Below are positions 5,483 through 21,359 of a DNA stretch of 35,403 nt, in pieces; position 1 is the stretch's first letter, and each line of letters begins with the position of its first letter. The position numbers were made by a program, and so were the translations under genes. This DNA is from a virus, in the IMG/VR virus record IMGVR_UViG_3300043540_000306, positions 1-35,403 of that record. The stretch is one strand, 5' to 3'. The notes beneath the pieces are model-generated. The model was given only the letters and a program-made list of their open reading frames with translations. It did no database searches and was not told the DNA's origin.

Positions 5483-5983
5483 ATGGCGGTGATGAAGGAA
5501 TGGAAGTGCGCCGCGCACGGCCACTTCGAGGGGACCCACCCGATCTGTCCCGCGCTGAATTGCTCGTCCGACCGTGTCGAGCGCGCGTTCGTCACCCCGG
5601 TGAGCATCAGCAAGGGGCGCTACGCATCCTTCGAGCGCGGCATGCGCAACACGGCCGAGCGCATGGGCATCAGCGACTTCCGCAGCGCGCGCGCCGGTGA
5701 CGTGTCGTTCGCGGGCCGCGGCCAGGACGCGCCGCTCGGCACCGAGGTGCTGTGGGGCAACGAGGTCGCCAGGCATCCGGGGATGGGCGGGCGCACCTTC
5801 GCGAACCTGACGCAGCAGGCCGCACAGCCGCTTACCGTCGCCGGCGTCGACCCGGAGGTGGACCCCTACCTGAGCATCAACAACGGCATGCGCGCCGCGG
5901 CGACGACGCTGGGCGTGACCAAGCGTGTGCTCCCGCCGGCGGAACTCACCGGCGAGTTGAAGCCAACGAGGAGCGCGGCGTGA
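5483..5983 (+). CDS. Zinc-ribbon-like hypothetical protein, 166 aa
   Basis: GGAG 8 nt upstream supports the ATG at 5483. The N-terminus reads MAVMKEWKCAAHGHFEGTHP then ICPALNCSS, giving C9, H12, C22 and C27, a plausible single zinc site. The rest is polar, ends with an Ala/Arg-rich tail, and holds no motif I recognise. Small Cys-bearing proteins of this shape commonly precede the portal gene in podovirus genomes. The stop overlaps the portal GTG. Confidence 0.65.
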   Translation: MAVMKEWKCAAHGHFEGTHPICPALNCSSDRVERAFVTPVSISKGRYASFERGMRNTAERMGISDFRSARAGDVSFAGRGQDAPLGTEVLWGNEVARHPGMGGRTFANLTQQAAQPLTVAGVDPEVDPYLSINNGMRAAATTLGVTKRVLPPAELTGELKPTRSAA

Positions 5984-7674
5984 AGATCCCGCGCGACCCG
6001 GTGGAGCGCCAACGGTTCTACGACGAGTTGACGCAGCAGTGCCTGGCGTCGCGTTCGGACCGCTTCGACTTCTACCGCACGCTGCGCAACTACTACCTCT
6101 TCGGCTCGTCCGACGAGTCGGGCGCCCCTTACAACAAGATCGGCTCGACGATCGACACGCTGGCGTCGTTCGTCTACGCACCCGACGCGGTGCGGTTCGC
6201 CATCAACATCGGCGTCAGTGCGGATCCGGGGGACGCGTACAAGGCGGCGCCGCTCGCACGCGAGCTCACCGAGCAGTGGCGCATGTCGGGCACGCACCTG
6301 CGGTTCGGCCTGGCCGCGAAGTGGTCGCTGGTCTTCGGTGCCATGCTGTTGAAAGTGCAGTGGAAGCGCGGCATCGCGCGCACCTACATGGTCGAGCCCC
6401 ACCAGTTCGGCGTGCTGCGCGAAGACATCGTCGACCTGGCGGACCAGGAAGCCTTCGTCATGTGCTACTCGACGACGAAGACGCAGCTGGGCGCCGACCT
6501 GGCGGGCAACCCGCGCCGCGAGTCGATCCTGGCGCGCGTCAACAAGGGCGCGGGCACCGGACAAAGCAACTTCTCGGACGGCATGACGCGCCTGCTGCTG
6601 TCCAACCCCGTCGGCGGCGTACCTGGATCGGTCGCGGCCAGCCATGGTACGGCGGGCGGTACCGTTGACGGCGGGCTGGCCGGCGGCCGCGCGCAGTACA
6701 GCTATGCGCCGCGCGTCGAAGCCGAGCTCGTCGACATGGTCGATCTGTACGTGTGGAACGACGACATCGACGACTACCAGATCGTGTCGATGGCTTCGCC
6801 CAGCGTCGTGATCTACGACCGTCCGCAGAAGGTCGTGGGCGTCGCCGGCATTCCGCACTTCGCCGTCGTGCGTGCGGAGTCGAACCTGTACGACTATTTC
6901 TGGGGCGACTCGTTCGCCGCGCGGCTCGCGTGGCTGCAGGAGTGGCGCACAGAGGACGTAGCCAATATCCGCAACCTGCAGAAAAAGCAGTCCGACCCCC
7001 CTATCAGCGGTACCGGCATGACCGGTATCGCCGAGGAGAAACTGCTCGCGCTGCGCCGCGCCGGTGGCTCGCTGTCGATGTCGACGCCGACGGCCAAGGT
7101 GCAGGTGCACGCGCCGACGATGCCGACGAACATCTTCGGCTCGCTGGCCGAGATCGATGCGATGTTCGACGACACTGCAGGCATAGGCCACATCCTGCAA
7201 GGCAAGGGTGAGGCCGGCGTGCGCTCGAAGGGCCAGGCCGACCTGATGGCCCGACTGGGGTCTTCGCGACCCAAGATGCGCGCGATCGTCGTCGAGGAGT
7301 CCGCCGAGGACGTGGCGACGCTGATGCTGCGCAACGTGCAGGAGAACAGCGACCAGAAGTTCCAGGCAACGATCCCAGGAAAGCCTGAAAAGTTGATTTT
7401 CGCGGCGGCGCAGTTTACAAAGGACTACGAGATCAAGGTGGACGCGCACAGTAGCTCGCCCATCTTCGTCGAGGACCGCAAGCATGACGCGATAACGCTG
7501 CTCGAGGCCAAGGCGATCGACCGCGAGACCTTCCTGGACATGTTCGACCCGCCCAACCGGCAGTTGCTCCAGGAACGGCTCAAGGTGATCGAGGCCCAGG
7601 AGGCGAAAGCGCAGCAGATGCAAGCCGCGGCGCAGGCGCAAGCCCACGGGGGCAAGCCGGCGGGCGGGAAGTGA
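5980..7674 (+). CDS. Portal protein
   Basis: 564 residues, forming the predicted dodecameric ring at the capsid vertex through which DNA is packaged. The GTG at 5980 overlaps the previous stop (GTGA) and has GGAG 6 nt upstream; the longer open frame back to 5752 is not coding. The text VKIPRDPVERQRFYDELTQQ, NYYLFGSSDESGAPYNKIGS and ADLMARLGSSRPKMRAIVVE fits portal proteins of podoviruses in order and size. The C-terminus is a Gln/Ala-rich helix and Gly-rich tail. Assignment rests on location after TerL, length and overall pattern. Confidence 0.85.
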   Translation: MKIPRDPVERQRFYDELTQQCLASRSDRFDFYRTLRNYYLFGSSDESGAPYNKIGSTIDTLASFVYAPDAVRFAINIGVSADPGDAYKAAPLARELTEQWRMSGTHLRFGLAAKWSLVFGAMLLKVQWKRGIARTYMVEPHQFGVLREDIVDLADQEAFVMCYSTTKTQLGADLAGNPRRESILARVNKGAGTGQSNFSDGMTRLLLSNPVGGVPGSVAASHGTAGGTVDGGLAGGRAQYSYAPRVEAELVDMVDLYVWNDDIDDYQIVSMASPSVVIYDRPQKVVGVAGIPHFAVVRAESNLYDYFWGDSFAARLAWLQEWRTEDVANIRNLQKKQSDPPISGTGMTGIAEEKLLALRRAGGSLSMSTPTAKVQVHAPTMPTNIFGSLAEIDAMFDDTAGIGHILQGKGEAGVRSKGQADLMARLGSSRPKMRAIVVEESAEDVATLMLRNVQENSDQKFQATIPGKPEKLIFAAAQFTKDYEIKVDAHSSSPIFVEDRKHDAITLLEAKAIDRETFLDMFDPPNRQLLQERLKVIEAQEAKAQQMQAAAQAQAHGGKPAGGK

Positions 7675-7733
7675 TTGACCGGGGTGTGGCTGCCCCCCAG
7701 GAAAGGTGGCCGCCTTCGACGAGGAGTGCAGAC

Positions 7734-7769
7734 ATGGCTCGCAAGATGCGGCGCGGCAAGCGCAAGTAG
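7734..7769 (+). CDS. 11-residue Arg/Lys-rich micro-ORF A
   Basis: ATG to TAG encodes MARKMRRGKRK. GAGGAG lies 7 nt upstream, as good as any site in the operon. The peptide is 8 of 11 basic residues. A near relative, MARRSRRSKRK, is encoded 78 bp downstream with its own strong site. The pair suggests a duplicated micro-gene. A role in compacting or neutralising DNA, or in capsid assembly, is only a guess from charge and place between portal and scaffold. Confidence 0.5.
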   Translation: MARKMRRGKRK

Positions 7770-7846
7770 GCCCTCGGGGTCTACACTCGGAACGCGAGCG
7801 CCGCAAGCGCACAGCGATCGTCTTCAACCCACCAACGGAGGCACAC

Positions 7847-7882
7847 ATGGCACGTCGTAGCCGTCGCAGCAAGCGCAAGTGA
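7847..7882 (+). CDS. 11-residue Arg/Lys-rich micro-ORF B
   Basis: ATG to TGA encodes MARRSRRSKRK, matching micro-ORF A at seven of eleven positions. GGAGG lies 5 nt upstream. The intervening DNA between the two ORFs is not similar, so selection on the peptide is more likely than a recent duplication. No homologue family is known to me. Confidence 0.5.
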   Translation: MARRSRRSKRK

Positions 7883-7893
7883 GCGCCAGGGCC

Positions 7894-7974
7894 ATGCAAG
7901 GGGCCTATTCGATTCGGTTGATCAAGGGGAACCCGCCGCCACCAGGGGGCGGGCACCCAGCACCCAAGAGGTGA
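7894..7974 (+). CDS. Possible 26-residue ORF
   Basis: ATG to TGA encodes a peptide starting MQGAYSIRLIKGNPPPPGGG and ending HPAPKR. Its ribosome site is poor (AGGG only 2 nt upstream). It spans a CCCGCC...GGCGGG hairpin at 7932-7953. It fills the space between micro-ORFs B and C, which is the only reason to list it. Confidence 0.2.
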   Translation: MQGAYSIRLIKGNPPPPGGGHPAPKR

Positions 7975-7977
7975 CCC

Positions 7978-8037
7978 ATGAATGAAGTCCTACCCGCCCG
8001 CAATCGGGGCTACGTCAAGCGGCGCTCTCGCCGCTGA
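7978..8037 (+). CDS. 19-residue basic micro-ORF C
   Basis: ATG to TGA encodes MNEVLPARNRGYVKRRSRR. GAGGTG lies 5 nt upstream. The C-terminal half (KRRSRR) is as basic as micro-ORFs A and B. It ends 5 bp before the next ATG, tiling the gap tightly. Confidence 0.45.
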   Translation: MNEVLPARNRGYVKRRSRR

Positions 8038-8042
8038 TCCGC

Positions 8043-8516
8043 ATGAGCGTCCCGCCGGAAGTCATTCAGCAGCTGATGGCCGCGCGCGGCGGTGCGCCAG
8101 GCGGTGCGCCAGGCGGCGCACCATCCGCTACCCCACCCGGCGCGGGCGGCCTACCCCCGGGGGGCATGGGCGGCCCGGCCGGCTCGCAGGGGCAGGCCCC
8201 CGGCGGCTCGCCGACACCCCAGCCACAGGACAAGCGTGGCCTGAAGAGCGCCGCGATGTCGAACCTGCACATCGCGCAGAACATGCTCGAGCAGGCACTC
8301 ACCGCCTTCCACCCAGGTGACCCCGAGTACAAGGTGATCCTGAAGTGCCTCACTTCGATGGCGCCGCTGGCCGGCAGGCGTGACGCAACGGACCTGGTCC
8401 CCGCGGAGGTCATGCGGATGGTCGGCCAAATGCCGCAAATGGGCGGCGGCACCGACGTGCAGCGTATGATCATGCAGCAGATGAACAAGCCGCCGCAGCC
8501 CGCGCCGGCCCAATGA
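8043..8516 (+). CDS. Hypothetical virion-region protein, 157 aa
   Basis: The N-terminus (MSVPPEVIQQLMAARGG) leads into a Gly/Pro/Ala-rich linker of about 45 residues with repeated GGAP units. A helical region (NLHIAQNMLEQALTAFHPGD, then YKVILKCLTSMAPLAG) and a Met/Gln-rich tail follow. Such proteins lie between portal and scaffold in several podovirus genomes and are thought to be structural or assembly factors. No function is claimed. Confidence 0.65.
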   Translation: MSVPPEVIQQLMAARGGAPGGAPGGAPSATPPGAGGLPPGGMGGPAGSQGQAPGGSPTPQPQDKRGLKSAAMSNLHIAQNMLEQALTAFHPGDPEYKVILKCLTSMAPLAGRRDATDLVPAEVMRMVGQMPQMGGGTDVQRMIMQQMNKPPQPAPAQ

Positions 8517-8528
8517 CGAGGTGATCCC

Positions 8529-8714
8529 ATGACCACTCGCTACCTTCAGCCCAGCCAGGACGGTCTGCGCAAGCCCACCGACCCGCAGAAGGAAAACGGC
8601 AACATCATCAACCCGCCGCGGTACGCCGAATTCGGCGGACTGACCGGCCCGAGCAAGGTCGCCACGCGCAACCCGCTCGTCATCAGCAAGCCCGGCGGCG
8701 GCCGCTCGGCCTGA
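8529..8714 (+). CDS. Small virion-region protein, 61 aa
   Basis: ATG at 8529 with GAGGTG 5 nt upstream. The product MTTRYLQPSQDGLRKPTDPQ ... is polar, Pro/Asn-rich and without predicted helices. It lies directly before the scaffold gene. It may be a minor capsid or assembly protein; no family is recognised. Confidence 0.6.
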   Translation: MTTRYLQPSQDGLRKPTDPQKENGNIINPPRYAEFGGLTGPSKVATRNPLVISKPGGGRSA

Positions 8715-8743: not shown

Positions 8744-9331
8744 ATGAGCCTTGAAGACCTCACCACTGACCAGCTGCTCGCCCACGCGCGCAACCTGCAA
8801 GGGTCGCACAACCTGTTGCAGACCCTGCTGAACGACCCGGCCGCACGCGAGACCGTGCAGCGCCACCTGAAGAAGCTCCAGCCCACCCTGTCGATCCCCG
8901 AGATCGACGCCAAGGACGCCGTTCTGAGCGAGTTGAAGGCCGAGCGCGAGGCGCGCCAGGCACTCGAGCGGTCGATCATGGAGGGTCAGGTGCGCGACCG
9001 GCTCGAGAAGGCGCGGTCGGCGGCCAAGACCCGATACGGCCTGGACGAGGCCGACATGGTCGAAGTCGAGAAGCTCATGACCGACGCCGAGAACCCCATC
9101 CCGACCTACGACGCCGCGGCACGCGTGCACAAGGCCAGCAAGTCCACCGCCACGCCGACGCCGTCGGCGTTGTCCGCACCCACGTTCGACATGCCCGAGA
9201 AGGACGTGTGGGGCAAGGGCATCGGCAACAAGGCGATGCTGGACAAGATCGCGGTGAACGAGGCTTTTGCCGCCCTCAACGACATTCGCGCCGGCAAGGT
9301 TGCCGGGTTGGGGCCCGCCCGGGCCGCGTGA
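8744..9331 (+). CDS. Putative capsid scaffolding protein
   Basis: 195 residues, highly charged and helical. Residues 50-100 (LSIPEIDAKDAVLSELKAER then EARQALERSIMEGQVRDRLE) predict a coiled coil. Placement immediately upstream of the major capsid gene is the standard scaffold position. The C-terminus is Gly/Ala-rich. The leader CAGAGTTGACCT directly before its ATG recurs before the gene at 12100. Scaffold identity is inferred from place and helix content, not from a conserved motif. Confidence 0.7.
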   Translation: MSLEDLTTDQLLAHARNLQGSHNLLQTLLNDPAARETVQRHLKKLQPTLSIPEIDAKDAVLSELKAEREARQALERSIMEGQVRDRLEKARSAAKTRYGLDEADMVEVEKLMTDAENPIPTYDAAARVHKASKSTATPTPSALSAPTFDMPEKDVWGKGIGNKAMLDKIAVNEAFAALNDIRAGKVAGLGPARAA

Positions 9332-9392: not shown

Positions 9393-10409
9393 ATGCCCGT
9401 CCTCGGTACCGGTGTGATGCCTTCCGGTGGTGTCGGATCCCTCGGCCAAGAGTTGCAGTACGTCACACGGCGCGCCTTCGTCAAGAAGCTCGTCGTGCAG
9501 ATCTACAACACCAGCCCGCTGGCCGCCGCACTGATCGCCAACTCGCAGCCCGCGTCGGGCGGTATCTCGTCGGTGACCATTCCGGCGCAGGGCACGCAGT
9601 TCGTGAACATGCAGTGGGTCGGCTACGACGGTTCGTTCAACCAGCCGAGCCCCCAGCCCGGCGTGACGAACCTCGAGTTCAACCTCAAGGGCGCGGTGAT
9701 CCCCGTCCCTTACCTCGGCTTCGAGGGCCTGCTGCAAGACTCGCACGAAGTCATTCCGCTGCTCGCCGCGCGGATGAACGACGCGGGCAACGTCTACTGC
9801 GACGGCATTGCAACCGCGCTGTACGGCAACACGTCGAACAACCAGCAGGTGATCGGCCTGCCGGGCGCGGTCGACGACGGCACGAACCTGGTGAACTACG
9901 GCAACCAGTCGCGCACGCTGAACCCGTGGCTGAAGGCCAAGCGCTACGCCGCCGGCGGCACCAACCCGACGCGTGCGCTCGTGATGCAGTACATCACCGG
10001 CACGTTCAAGAACTGCGGCGAATTGCCGACCTTCGGCGTCATGGGCCCGGCCACCTGGCAGACCCTGGCGAACGACTTCCTGCCCAACGAGTCCTACGTC
10101 GTCACGCCCGAAAAGGGCTTCGACGACGAGCCGTGGGGTGCGCGCAGCGCCTTCCGTGCGCTGATGGTCGCCGGCGTGCCGATCTACTGCGATCCGTACT
10201 GCCCGGAAGGCACCATGTACCTGCTCAACACGGGATACGCGGCCTTCTACATCCACGAGCGCGCCGCCTTCGCCTTCACGGGCTTCGAGAGCACGCTGAG
10301 CAACTTCCAGATCGGCTACATCGGCGCGGTGCTGTCGCTGCTCGAGTTCGTGCTCGCGAAGCCGAAATCGTGCACGGTGGTGACCGGTTTCACCTTCGTG
10401 ACCATCTGA
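9393..10409 (+). CDS. Major capsid protein
   Basis: 338 residues with AGGAG 6 nt before the ATG, a strong site that fits high expression. The N-terminus (GSLGQELQYVTRRAFVKKLV) resembles the N-arm of HK97-fold capsid proteins. Segments such as YGNTSNNQQVIGLPGAVDDG and APIP-type beta strands near VAGVPIYCDPYCPEGTMYLL match the P- and A-domain pattern of phage capsids of this class. Location after scaffold supports the call. No protease gene is seen nearby, so maturation cleavage is not implied. Confidence 0.85.
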   Translation: MPVLGTGVMPSGGVGSLGQELQYVTRRAFVKKLVVQIYNTSPLAAALIANSQPASGGISSVTIPAQGTQFVNMQWVGYDGSFNQPSPQPGVTNLEFNLKGAVIPVPYLGFEGLLQDSHEVIPLLAARMNDAGNVYCDGIATALYGNTSNNQQVIGLPGAVDDGTNLVNYGNQSRTLNPWLKAKRYAAGGTNPTRALVMQYITGTFKNCGELPTFGVMGPATWQTLANDFLPNESYVVTPEKGFDDEPWGARSAFRALMVAGVPIYCDPYCPEGTMYLLNTGYAAFYIHERAAFAFTGFESTLSNFQIGYIGAVLSLLEFVLAKPKSCTVVTGFTFVTI

Positions 10410-15838: not shown

Positions 15839-16272
15839 TCGAAGACTACGACGAGAAGCGGCACGCCACCGGCGTGCTGAGGTTGCTGGACCAGATGTGC
15901 GCCGAGGCGGCGGCCGAGTACTGGGAGCGCGAGCACGGGCTGATCCTCCACTTCCTCCGGCAGGAGTACGTCTTGTGCGCCGTCGCCAGCGCCGGGGGGC
16001 AGCTCGTCGGGCTGATAATCGCAGAGATCGGAGAGCCATTTTTCAGCCGAAAAGTTGGCGTCTACGAGCAGATCCTGTATGTTGAGCCGGCGCATCGGGG
16101 CGGCATCCATGCCGCCCGGCTGATCGCGCGGTGCGAGCGCTGGGCCCGCGCTCGCGGCGCGCAGGAGATGCACCTGTCACAGCGCACGGGCATCGAGGCG
16201 GACCGCACGCGCGACCTCTTCGCGCGGCTGGGGTTCGAGGTAGTCGGGTTCAACGCACGAAAGGTCCTGTGA
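15835..16272 (+). CDS. GNAT-family N-acetyltransferase
   Basis: 145 residues. Motif A is at about 80-100 (ILYVEPAHRGGIHAARLIAR), with RGGIHA in place of the usual R/QxxGxG/A acetyl-CoA loop. Strand beta4 (LVGLIIAEIG) precedes it, and the C-terminal ARLGFEVVGFNARKVL matches the usual end. The reaction is transfer of acetyl from acetyl-CoA to an amine. The substrate is unknown. GNAT genes among podovirus structural genes are not rare and may modify virion or host proteins. The start GTG overlaps the previous stop; the stop overlaps the next ATG. Confidence 0.85.
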   Translation: MIEDYDEKRHATGVLRLLDQMCAEAAAEYWEREHGLILHFLRQEYVLCAVASAGGQLVGLIIAEIGEPFFSRKVGVYEQILYVEPAHRGGIHAARLIARCERWARARGAQEMHLSQRTGIEADRTRDLFARLGFEVVGFNARKVL

Positions 16273-17576
16273 TGTGCAGCACCAGCAAGTTTCTCCGGGA
16301 TGCGGCAATGCTCGCGGCAGCCTACTACACCGGCGGCGCATCGCTGGCGGGTGGGAGCGCTGCCGACATCGGCGCCGGGATCACCTACGGCGGTGCCGGC
16401 GCGTTCGGGTCTTCGGCGGGGCTGACCGGTGGTCTCGACCTCACAGCCGGCGCGGGGCTCACCGGCGCCGGCGCGGGGTTGGCCGCTGACGCCGGCGTAG
16501 GGCTCACCACGGCCGCCGACATCGGCGCCGGGATCACCTACGGCGGCGCAGGCAGCTTCGGCACCGGCGCAGGGCTCACCGGGGGGTTGGACCTCACCGC
16601 CGCGCCGTCGCTCGCGTCGGGTGGCGCGACCTCGGGGTTCGCCACGCCCGACATCGGCGCTGCGCTGGAGAGCTCGGGCGCCGGCGCGCTCGGCGGGTCG
16701 TTCCTTCCCGTGACTGGCGCGGGTGGCGTCACCGGCGGCATCGGCCAGCTGTCGCCAGACCTCGCATCCTCGCTCGGCGTCTCGCAGGGCACGGGCGCCA
16801 CGGCGCCATCGCTCGTAGGCGCACCCGACGCGGCAGCGACTTTCTCGCCGTCGATCACTGGCGGGTCGGACCTCACCTCGGGGATGGGCACCAACGGCCT
16901 CGGTTTCCAGACCGGCGACATGTCGGCGATCGACGCCGCCGGCGGCGGCGCGGCACCGACGGCTGGCGGCAGCTTCGGCAGTGACATCGTGGGCGGCCTG
17001 AAGACCGCTGCGGGCAAGGCCGGCACGTGGGCCGCGTCCCACCCCGTCAACGCGCTCATGTACGGCAACGCGCTGATGACCGCGCTGTCGAAGCCGCAAC
17101 TCCCTGGCGCCGCGCAAACCGCGCTGGGCGCGTCGTCGCAGGCGGTGCAGCAGGCGCAGAGCATCCTGGCGTCCGGTGGCACGTCCTCGCCCCTGTGGGC
17201 GACGCAGAAGTCGTCGATCGACCAGTCGATCAACCAGAACCTCAACAACGCCATCGAGCAGCTGGTGCAGTCCGCGCAGACCAGCGGGCAGGGTGGCCGC
17301 GACTCGGCCGTCGTGCAGCAAGGCATCAACCGGCTGAACCAGCAGGCCGAAACACAGCGCCAGCAGCTTTACTCGCAGGCGCTGAACCAGATCGTGTCGA
17401 GTGCGGTCTCGGAGCTCTCGGGCGGCAACCAGACGCTTGGCGCCATCGCGCAGATGCAGATGAGTCAGTCGGCGCAGGCGCGCCAGGCCGCGTCGCAGAC
17501 GGCAGAGCTCGCGACGCTGCTCGGCGGTGACACAAGGCCGCCCGGGGGCGCTGGCGCGGCCGCCGGAGGGGGTTGA
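16272..17576 (+). CDS. Gly-rich putative DNA-ejection protein (first of three)
   Basis: 434 residues starting MCSTSKFLRDAAMLAAAYYT. An MC start and a short hydrophobic N-terminus recall internal virion proteins such as T7 gp14. Residues 30-120 are Gly/Ala/Leu repeats: ADIGAGITYGGAGAFGSSAG recurs 51 codons later. The C-terminal 150 residues are Gln/Ser-rich helices (ATQKSSIDQSINQNLNNAIE, INRLNQQAETQRQQLYSQAL) likely to form coiled coils. The gene starts a run of three large proteins in the usual place for ejection proteins, which leave the capsid and form a conduit through the cell envelope. Function by context. Confidence 0.6.
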   Translation: MCSTSKFLRDAAMLAAAYYTGGASLAGGSAADIGAGITYGGAGAFGSSAGLTGGLDLTAGAGLTGAGAGLAADAGVGLTTAADIGAGITYGGAGSFGTGAGLTGGLDLTAAPSLASGGATSGFATPDIGAALESSGAGALGGSFLPVTGAGGVTGGIGQLSPDLASSLGVSQGTGATAPSLVGAPDAAATFSPSITGGSDLTSGMGTNGLGFQTGDMSAIDAAGGGAAPTAGGSFGSDIVGGLKTAAGKAGTWAASHPVNALMYGNALMTALSKPQLPGAAQTALGASSQAVQQAQSILASGGTSSPLWATQKSSIDQSINQNLNNAIEQLVQSAQTSGQGGRDSAVVQQGINRLNQQAETQRQQLYSQALNQIVSSAVSELSGGNQTLGAIAQMQMSQSAQARQAASQTAELATLLGGDTRPPGGAGAAAGGG

Positions 17577-19004: not shown

Positions 19005-21359
19005 ATGCCCCAGGTCAAGATGCCCGACGGCACGGTGGTCGAGATGCCCGACAACCCCGACCCGGCACTGGTCGCGCGGCTGCAGCGTTTCCAGGCAGCG
19101 CAGGGCGCCGGCGGCGCGCCGCCGTCGCCCCGGGGGGGTGGGGGGGGGGGGGGTGGTGGGGGTGGTGGGGGTGGTGGTGGTGGTGGTGGTGGTGACGTGC
19201 TCGGCTTCATTTCTGGCAACATCGGAAAAGGAGAGGCGGGGCTGGCCGGCATTCCGGTGGACACCGCGCTCAACGTCGCGGACCTGGTCAAGGCCGCTTA
19301 CGGTGTTGCCAAGCACGAGATCACCGGCGGCGCACCGCCGGAGCTGACGGATCGAAGCGGGGTCGTCGGCTCGAGCGAGTGGATCATCAAGCAGGCGCAG
19401 CGCGCCGGCCTGATCACGCCGGCGGCCGAGCCGACGACGGCCGGCGGGCGGGTCGCCGCCGGCGCGCTGCAGGCGGTGCCATCGATCATGGGCGGCGGCG
19501 AGGCTTCCGTGGGGTCGCTGGCACGCCAGGCGGGTGCGGCTGCGGTGAGCGGAGGTCTGCCGCAGATCATCGAGCAGGCCGGCGGCTCGCCGAGTGAGCA
19601 GGTGCTCGGCAGCATGCTGCCCGGCATGGCCCACCAGGCGATGCCAGTCGGGAAGGAAGCACTGCGGCGCAAGATCGTCGGCGGCGCCGACGTGCGCGCC
19701 AACGTCGAGGAAGCACGCCGGGCGGGCATGCCCCGGCCGGACCCCGCTGCGGTGACCGGCAGCCGCATGCTGGGTGGCGCCGAGGGGACGCTGGCCAGGC
19801 TGCCGGGGGCGGGTAGCGTCATGGACGCGGCGGCCGAGCAGCGCGCCGCCGGCGTGCAGCGGCGCATCGGCGAGATCGCGCGCGAGATGTCCCCCGCCGG
19901 GCCGGTGAGCGCCGAGCGTGCGGGGCGCGCCATCACGCAGGGCGTCGAGGGTGCCGTCACGAACTTCCGCGCGCGGCAAGACCAGCTATACAAGAAGGTC
20001 GACGCGATGGTCGACCCGGCGTCGCCGATCGCGCTGAACAACTTCCGCGCCAAGATCCGCGAGTTCGCCAACCCGACCCCCGGCGCCGAGGCCACGAGTC
20101 GCTCGCTGGTCCCCGAGAAAGTGCGCGCGCTCTTCGAGGGCATTGAGACGGACCTCGCCGGTGTGCCGCCGCGACCGAAAGTCGACACGAGCGCGCCGGT
20201 ACCGGCCGAGAGCGAGCCGATGCCGAAGCCGCCGCGCAGTGACCGCGCGGTGGAAGTTGCGCGGTACCAGCAGGAGATGCGCGCCAGGCAGCGCAAGATC
20301 GACCAGCAACGCGCCGAGCGCCAGAAAGCGGCCGAGGCCGCGGCGGCACCCGGCGAGCGCTCGCTCGACGTCACACGCCGGCGCGATGGCCACCTCGAGA
20401 CCGTCGGCCGCAAGATCGCGGTGCAGGACATCGCACAGGAGGGCCGCGCGGCCAAGGACTCGTTGCCCTACCAGACCGTTGCGGGCATCCGCTCGCAGCT
20501 GGGCCGGTTGCTCGAGGACGGCATGCTCATGACCGACGCGCCGAAGTCGATGTACAAGGCGCTGTACCGCGCTCTGAGCGACGACGTGCGCGCCGCGCTG
20601 CCGCCGGACGCGAAGCAGGCATGGGAGCGGGCCTCGAGGTACACGCGCGCCGGACACGACCGCATCGAGACGGTCTACCAGCCGCTCGTCGACAAGCAGA
20701 CCCCGGAGAAGGCGCTGCGCGCGGCGCTGTCGGGAACGCGCGAGGGCGCGAGCGCCTTGCGCAAGATCATGGGCGCGCTGACGCCCGACCAGCGCAACGC
20801 GGTGGCGTCGCACGTCATCGAGAACATGGGCCGCGCGTCGCCGAGCCAACAGACCGCGGAGGGCAATCGGTTCAGCATCGAGACCTTCCTCACGAACTAC
20901 ACCAAGCTCGATCCGGCGGCGCAGCGCGCGCTGCTGCCGCCGAGTGCGCGCAAAGACCTGGAGACGGTAGCGAGCGCTGTGTCGCGGCTGCGCGAGGCCG
21001 GGCGGGGCACCTACAACCCGTCGGGCACCGCGCGCGCGGTGACGCACGCGGGCTTCGCCGGCGCGGGGGTCACAGGGGTGCTCATTCCGCTGATGTCGGG
21101 GCACCTCGGCACCGCCGCGGCCACGGGCGGCGGCCTGGCGGCCGAGCTCGCGCTCAATCACACGGTGGCCCGGGCCATGACCAGCCCGGAGTTCATCCAC
21201 TGGCTCGCCGAGGGCACGAAGGTGCCCCAGACCGATCGCGCGCGCTATGCCGCGCGCCTTGCGATCATCGCGAAGAACACCCGCGACCCGGAGACCGCGC
21301 AGGCGCTGCACGACATCAGCGGCGTGGTTGCCGGTCCCGACACAGCAGGAGGACAATGA
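19005..21359 (+). CDS. Putative large DNA-ejection protein (third of three) with poly-Gly tract
   Basis: 784 residues. The N-terminus MPQVKMPDGTVVEMPDNPDP is a short beta segment seen at the start of several phage internal proteins. Residues 44-63 are an unbroken run of about 20 glycines encoded by a G/T-only tract containing 14 consecutive Gs. Beyond this come Gly/Ala-rich helices (GGRVAAGALQAVPSIMGGGE), a long charged helix (YQQEMRARQRKIDQQRAERQ, residues about 420-450) and a membrane-active-looking GFAGAGVTGVLIPLMSGHLG near 700. No lysozyme motif is evident. A one-base slip in the G run would truncate the protein. Confidence 0.6.
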   Translation: MPQVKMPDGTVVEMPDNPDPALVARLQRFQAAQGAGGAPPSPRGGGGGGGGGGGGGGGGGGGGDVLGFISGNIGKGEAGLAGIPVDTALNVADLVKAAYGVAKHEITGGAPPELTDRSGVVGSSEWIIKQAQRAGLITPAAEPTTAGGRVAAGALQAVPSIMGGGEASVGSLARQAGAAAVSGGLPQIIEQAGGSPSEQVLGSMLPGMAHQAMPVGKEALRRKIVGGADVRANVEEARRAGMPRPDPAAVTGSRMLGGAEGTLARLPGAGSVMDAAAEQRAAGVQRRIGEIAREMSPAGPVSAERAGRAITQGVEGAVTNFRARQDQLYKKVDAMVDPASPIALNNFRAKIREFANPTPGAEATSRSLVPEKVRALFEGIETDLAGVPPRPKVDTSAPVPAESEPMPKPPRSDRAVEVARYQQEMRARQRKIDQQRAERQKAAEAAAAPGERSLDVTRRRDGHLETVGRKIAVQDIAQEGRAAKDSLPYQTVAGIRSQLGRLLEDGMLMTDAPKSMYKALYRALSDDVRAALPPDAKQAWERASRYTRAGHDRIETVYQPLVDKQTPEKALRAALSGTREGASALRKIMGALTPDQRNAVASHVIENMGRASPSQQTAEGNRFSIETFLTNYTKLDPAAQRALLPPSARKDLETVASAVSRLREAGRGTYNPSGTARAVTHAGFAGAGVTGVLIPLMSGHLGTAAATGGGLAAELALNHTVARAMTSPEFIHWLAEGTKVPQTDRARYAARLAIIAKNTRDPETAQALHDISGVVAGPDTAGGQ
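19132..19193 (+). repeat. G/T-only low-complexity tract with G14 run
   Basis: From 19132 to 19193 the + strand holds only G and T: seven Gs, T, then fourteen Gs (19140-19153), then GGT-type triplets. It encodes about 20 glycines. The tract has several runs of three or more Gs, so it can form G-quadruplex structure, and it is prone to replication slippage and sequencing error. Confidence 0.85.

Follow-up and report, generated by a model that had tools for sequence, protein, structure and literature searches.

Tiny basic-peptide genes and a covarying leader RNA between the portal and capsid genes of uncultured tailed phages

Tiny basic ORFs downstream of the portal gene

We analysed the 35,403 nucleotides (nt) of the IMG/VR virus record IMGVR_UViG_3300043540_000306 (positions 1 to 35,403; hereafter the window), and here describe three very small open reading frames (ORFs) located between its portal and capsid genes, as well as an RNA element preceding the first of them; all lie on the plus strand. 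The portal gene (5980-7674, GTG start) encodes a protein with 40.7% identity to the annotated 'portal protein' of MW202825, and the 368 nt between its stop and the next gene, P0001 (8043-8516), hold all three tiny ORFs. ORF1 (7734-7769) encodes the 11-residue peptide A, MARKMRRGKRK, 7 nt downstream of the Shine-Dalgarno sequence AGGAG (7722-7726), is orthologous to the MAR[KRH]xRRxKRK peptides of relatives, and is the ORF that follows the pseudoknot. ORF2 (7847-7882) encodes a second copy of 11 residues, MARRSRRSKRK, with GGAGG (7837-7841) 5 nt before the ATG, and has no canonical pseudoknot upstream. ORF3 (7978-8037) encodes the 19-residue peptide MNEVLPARNRGYVKRRSRR of a second tiny basic family (PAR..RG(G)nxY followed by a basic tail) and has GAGG (7968-7971) 6 nt before its ATG. 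The original prediction had placed three tiny ORFs at 7734-8037, and all were found there; it had counted seven of eleven residues common to ORF1 and ORF2, where the actual number is eight, and had called all three Shine-Dalgarno sequences near-ideal, where the GAGG of ORF3 is a weaker one.

When the 368-nt gap was resampled with a Markov model, only 1 of 3000 sequences gave even one such ORF, while the gap itself has two, and none was found elsewhere in the window on either strand. Portal similarity alone retrieved 46 IMG/VR loci, which came to 31 after near-duplicates had been removed and the window included. In 27 of these 31, one or more ORFs of 8-20 codons combine at least 50% lysine plus arginine with a Shine-Dalgarno sequence and a distance of at most 450 nt from the portal stop. 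The density of these ORFs was 2.15 per kb in the gap versus 0.0032 per kb elsewhere, both strands considered, corresponding to an approximately 670-fold enrichment. The four loci missed by this strict test each carry an atypical version: L002 encodes MARRHRRGKRR preceded by AGGGG, L018 encodes MQIAFRRNRRSRR, and L028 and L032 have 30-residue forms in which an amphipathic-looking segment stands ahead of the basic tail. Absence of the peptides from close relatives, the outcome that had been named as fatal to the prediction, was thus not observed.

When all of IMG/VR was scanned for this peptide pattern together with a Shine-Dalgarno sequence, 89 stretches were returned, nearly all of which carry the peptide between a portal homolog (identity down to approximately 26%) and capsid genes. 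The 11-mers consist of lysine and arginine to 55-73%. In L126, MARRKRHSKRK occupies the equivalent gap next to a portal of PHROG 156 that cannot be aligned to the window portal by BLASTP. Applied to 257 Gb of genomes from bacteria and archaea, the pattern scan yielded a single chance-like site, MASSHQKSKRK in Paenibacillus, and a prophage or bacterial origin was therefore rejected. Matches to MASKQHQSKSK (L054, L056, and L093) had no neighboring head-gene match and were treated as unrelated, and no tiny ORFs were seen in the stretches examined of the distant capsid relatives Mx8, Mx9, a TM7 phage, and MW202566. In both GenBank relatives the tiny peptides are unannotated and minus-strand gene calls occupy the gap instead. 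A literature search of incomplete coverage returned no report of the peptide family or the RNA element.

Among closely related 11-mers, the ratio of non-synonymous to synonymous polymorphism (pN/pS) was 0.29, and entropy at the three codon positions was 0.67, 0.66, and 1.45, respectively. Arginine was encoded by CGT in 44% of cases in the tiny ORFs versus 14% in portal genes, the share being above that of the portal in 51 of 59 phages (Wilcoxon p 3e-9), and TAA stops terminated 80 of 92 tiny ORFs versus 14 of 67 portal genes. This use of arginine and stop codons suggests that the peptides are highly expressed. Judged from these sequence features, the ORFs almost certainly represent a real, translated micro-gene, and the view that conserved and selected tiny basic peptides belong to the capsid-assembly cluster is strongly supported.

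Many phages carry two tiny basic ORFs approximately 80-120 nt apart. The layout with two copies of peptide A recurs in L052, L062, L079, L087, and L091, and ORF3-like ORFs are found in L002, L004, L024, L025, L034, L065, L082, L096, L106, and others. In L055 and L069, where the portal gene is inverted relative to the capsid genes, the peptide gene keeps its place ahead of the capsid genes and points the same way as they do; it therefore moves with the capsid module. Another basic ORF of approximately 40-55 residues (..GHAYKRNFN.APxGxFxIRM.RP..SRSKSxRG) was noted in L001, L012, L015, L022, L028, L032, and L084; in many relatives it lies across or directly against the portal stop, but the window lacks it.

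The leader RNA and its linkage to the peptide

Alignment of the gaps of relatives revealed a conserved non-coding block before one peptide. Coding conservation was rejected as its cause, as no frame is open in most loci and the distance to the ATG is not constant modulo 3. In the window, the block can form an H-type pseudoknot of 31 nt (7681-7711), in which GGGG (7681-7684) pairs with CCCC (7695-7698) in stem P1 and GGCUGCC (7688-7694) with GGUGGCC (7705-7711) in stem P2. Loop L1 (UGU, 7685-7687), which is 3 nt long in 42 of 51 elements, separates the two 5' strands, and loop L3 (AGGAAA, 7699-7704), A-rich across relatives, leads to the 3' strand of P2. The usual geometry comprises a P1 of 3-6 base pairs (bp), an L1 of 2-4 nt, a P2 of 7 bp with the usual sequence GGCUGCN/NGUGGCC, an L2 of 0-3 nt, and an A-rich L3 of 4-11 nt, and the pseudoknot usually ends 8-12 nt before the Shine-Dalgarno sequence of the peptide.

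P1 covaries, as do pairs 6 and 7 of P2. Pairs 1-6 of P2 are nearly invariant in most phages, including a tandem G-U, and pair 7 is always paired in the 51 distinct elements (UA 23, CG 16, UG 5, GC 4, AU 2, GU 1). In alignment A1, 16 double-change cells were counted in P2 versus 3.8 ± 1.7 after shuffling (0/500), and in the subset of elements lacking an L2 loop, both stems jointly were 100% paired, with 25 double-change cells versus 4.8 ± 2.5 (0/500). P1 is paired in 43 of the 51 elements and pair 7 in all 51; when partners were swapped, these numbers did not exceed 32 and 40, respectively. Quite different P2 stems in equal geometry (e.g., GUCGCGU/ACGCGGC and GGUCUCU/AGAGACC) occur in L018, L028, and L032, which we regard as supportive only, because the chance probability of each alone is 1-3%. 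A single hairpin was rejected as the sole structure, because P1 and P2 cross and both covary. An RNA structure containing both stems is thus very probable, and the covariation of both, together with the fitting geometry, makes a pseudoknot likely rather than alternating hairpins.

A covariance search with the Rfam 15 models gave no match to the element, either in this region of the window (E ≤ 1) or in seven relatives (E ≤ 5). CCTT (7713-7716) could pair as an anti-Shine-Dalgarno sequence with GAGG (7721-7724); a corresponding pairing of at least 4 bp is possible in 30 of 51 relatives, a figure that lacks a chance control.

A strict descriptor of the RNA was applied to 2.56 Mb, a figure that counts both strands. 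A tiny basic ORF followed 104 of the elements found, and 2 further elements had none; many of the loci had been retrieved by portal or peptide. When the RNA only was used for scanning, 30 loci were found, and a tiny basic ORF lay just downstream in 30 of 30. One peptide per phage is preceded by the pseudoknot, whereas the second copy is without it. The original interpretation is partly supported; the covarying pseudoknot and the two-peptide organization, both missed in it, suggest an RNA-regulated micro-gene rather than a mere cluster of peptides.

Two kinds of variant leader were also noted. In L062 and L052, the place of the canonical pseudoknot is taken by another possible one (GGCG/CGCC with ACCCA/UGGGU or CCCUG/CAGGG). 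In L139, L140, and L142, which form a distant clade, a hairpin with a pyrimidine-rich loop (e.g., CUUCUCUC) lies 5' of the tiny ORF; its loop may pair with the Shine-Dalgarno sequence GAGAGGAG, which would possibly make it a variant that sequesters this sequence directly.

Possible functions and alternative explanations

The comparison of relatives shows a coding gene under purifying selection, a signature of high expression, paired stems, and a linkage between RNA and peptide. Our favored explanation, to which we assign a probability of about 0.4, is that these are nucleic-acid-binding micro-proteins of the head operon, the translation of which is controlled by the pseudoknot leader, the peptide itself probably exerting feedback. 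ORF1, together with its copy ORF2, would then form a genuine head-operon micro-gene with an 11-residue product of some seven to eight positive charges, which would bind nucleic acid late in infection, phage DNA (and RNA) being the most likely target, and serve as a small counter-ion or condensing agent in head assembly and packaging. The leader pseudoknot, which borders the 30S site on its upstream side, would set the amount of peptide, and feedback would be the likeliest control: once the nucleic-acid sites fill, free peptide would bind the pseudoknot and block initiation. From the composition of the peptide we infer nucleic-acid binding. Translational control is the natural reading for a pseudoknot that adjoins the ribosome site from upstream, in front of a gene with signs of strong expression, and we regard it as reasonably probable. 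Feedback by the peptide, modeled on gp32 of phage T4, is proposed tentatively, and the position in the operon hints at a role in the virion or in packaging that may or may not apply. A self-contained switch, in which the product of the 11-codon gene would recognize the H-type pseudoknot of its leader, turn off its synthesis and in addition act as a protamine-like head peptide, seems unlikely.

Several observations weigh against the favored explanation. The CGT and TAA bias may partly come from selection against mRNA structure at the start of genes. Energy folding of the window leader, with a program unable to form pseudoknots, preferred a hairpin extended from P2, and the folding energy was not below that of shuffled sequences (z 0.33); because of these two results, two alternative hairpins are still conceivable. 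L052, L062, L130, and L132 combine the canonical peptide with non-canonical leaders, for which other pseudoknots are conceivable, and the RNA is therefore either not strictly required or has been replaced. Moreover, L153 and L160 carry the canonical RNA before a different peptide, MFQPLEAKRGRKGRKHRR. We found no cultured relative, all relatives being uncultured, and since many loci are related, the counts do not represent independent events. Strict co-evolution of peptide and RNA is not claimed, as L018, L028, and L032, in which both differ, are suggestive, but L052/L062 and L153/L160 contradict it.

The pseudoknot could instead be a passive element that shields or determines a processed 5' end, or provides a ribosome standby site, and thereby raises expression of the head genes over the portal, while the peptide separately binds DNA. 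Its location at the boundary between portal and head genes, the replacement of the P2 sequence in L018, L028, and L032 with the geometry kept, and the different peptide downstream of the canonical RNA in L153 and L160 would agree with this. However, the near invariance of P2 pairs 1-6, tandem G-U included, goes beyond what a mere structural barrier would need, and the pseudoknot is found before one specific peptide but not before its second copy; we consider a passive element somewhat unlikely. An arginine-rich peptide adjoining a conserved RNA element is also reminiscent of an N-type antiterminator, with the pseudoknot as a nut-like site for late transcription or translation and no virion role. 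Lambda nutL lies just upstream of N, and minimal arginine-rich motifs are similar in size to the peptide, but 11 residues leave no room for the additional segments that N-type proteins require for RNA polymerase and NusA. Furthermore, the element is located inside the head gene cluster and not ahead of a region controlled by terminators, a search of window 7400-8700 around it gave no terminator-like site, and additional tiny basic ORFs commonly lack the RNA, which makes antitermination improbable. A promoter or terminator reading of the element itself was rejected, since neither was found in this region of the window.

A very short ORF with a strong Shine-Dalgarno sequence and a structured leader would likewise suit a leader peptide, the translation of which regulates a downstream gene by attenuation or coupling while the product is functionless. 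This is highly improbable for ORF1, as the next conserved gene lies anywhere from tens of nt (L017 and L019) to more than 1700 nt away (L087 and L091) with no fixed coupling, tandem copies exist, the codons look optimal and not rare, and the peptide sequence is under selection. Finally, GC-rich DNA commonly contains short ORFs, and the tiny ORFs might have arisen by chance or from the composition of GC-rich intergenic sequence; the enrichment, the conserved sequence with its Shine-Dalgarno, the synonymous variation and the complete recovery of tiny ORFs from the RNA scan refute this, leaving it a negligible probability.

Known systems and neighboring genes

Tiny, strongly basic virion peptides that neutralize packaged DNA include protein J of microviruses and mu of adenoviruses. 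The 11-mers resemble these in small size and strong positive charge, whereas J and mu are longer and belong to other virus groups, and the peptides here are putative virion components. They are not known to be related in sequence to J or mu. N of lambda and P22 likewise has a short arginine-rich peptide region encoded beside a structured RNA; it carries activation segments and acts early, and its boxB is a hairpin where the element here is a pseudoknot to which peptide binding is putative.

Gp32 of T4 represses its own mRNA through a leader pseudoknot, in 2010 described as possibly the only viral pseudoknot of translational autoregulation (PMC3014915), and comparison with RB69 has revealed gp32 operators that diverge in sequence between phages (PMC535899). 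Gene 32 of both phages and the micro-gene share an H-type leader pseudoknot and a product that binds, or here supposedly binds, nucleic acid; the pseudoknot described here is supported by covariation in both crossing stems, alternating hairpins being less likely. In contrast, gp32 is a folded single-stranded-DNA-binding protein and not an 11-residue basic peptide, and 67 nt separate its pseudoknot from the start codon, the sequence between being an unstructured A+U tract (PMC3014915; PMC535899); here, usually 8-12 nt lie between pseudoknot and Shine-Dalgarno sequence. The Downstream-peptide RNA motif (RF01704), which is related to the glnA riboswitch candidate, occurs in cyanobacterial and marine sequences before ORFs of 17-100 residues (PMC2864571). 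It is similar in being a conserved structured RNA in the putative 5' untranslated region of short, conserved, uncharacterized ORFs, and differs in host setting and ORF size, the element here being without an Rfam match.

Basic genes of approximately 11 codons beside the capsid genes of widespread uncultured tailed phages, mostly led by a pseudoknot, suggest an unusually small RNA-controlled gene. Genes of this length fall under the usual size cut-off of annotation, and selection, expression signature and a dedicated covarying RNA indicate that they are real and conserved even though the portals share only approximately 26-40% identity. A compact pseudoknot and a minimal basic peptide would provide a tractable system of peptide-RNA recognition, and one may ask whether tailed phages manage DNA charge during packaging by means of small basic peptides. 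If the peptide-pseudoknot switch were true, it would be among the smallest autoregulated protein genes and represent a second viral translational autoregulatory pseudoknot.

Downstream of the tiny ORFs, the conserved P0001 encodes 157 residues with a proline/glycine-rich, disordered N-terminus and a helical hairpin, and is followed by a conserved 61-residue gene (8529-8714), an all-helical protein of 195 residues (8744-9331) and the major capsid gene (9393-10409; PHROG 9953 major head protein, E 1.4e-25). The original prediction had labeled 8043-8516 the scaffold, which was not confirmed: two genes separate P0001 from the capsid gene, and its N-terminus is disordered. Position directly 5' of the capsid gene and predicted fold make 8744-9331 the more likely scaffold candidate, for which a structure search gave no PDB match. 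The suggested scaffold binding of the peptides found no support, the gene named as scaffold probably not being one and the neighboring products being near neutral in predicted net charge. DNA binding, the other function suggested in the original prediction, is plausible from the composition of the peptides. The 61-residue gene is present group-wide, yet had no database match. In L095, L071, L049, L061, and relatives, TTGACA followed by the inverted repeat GTTTGTAA.GTGG.TTACAAAC was noted 5' of the P0001 homolog and is possibly a promoter with an operator.

Elsewhere in the window, hexapeptide-like repeats (VGDGAxVGDGA...) resembling a left-handed beta-helix are encoded on the minus strand at 810-1409. 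On the plus strand, a 481-residue ORF at 16131-17576 contains internal repeats (ADIGAGITYGGAG..GLTGGLDLTAG), and a 784-residue ORF of the structural region (19005-21359) has approximately 20 consecutive glycines (PSPRGGGG...).
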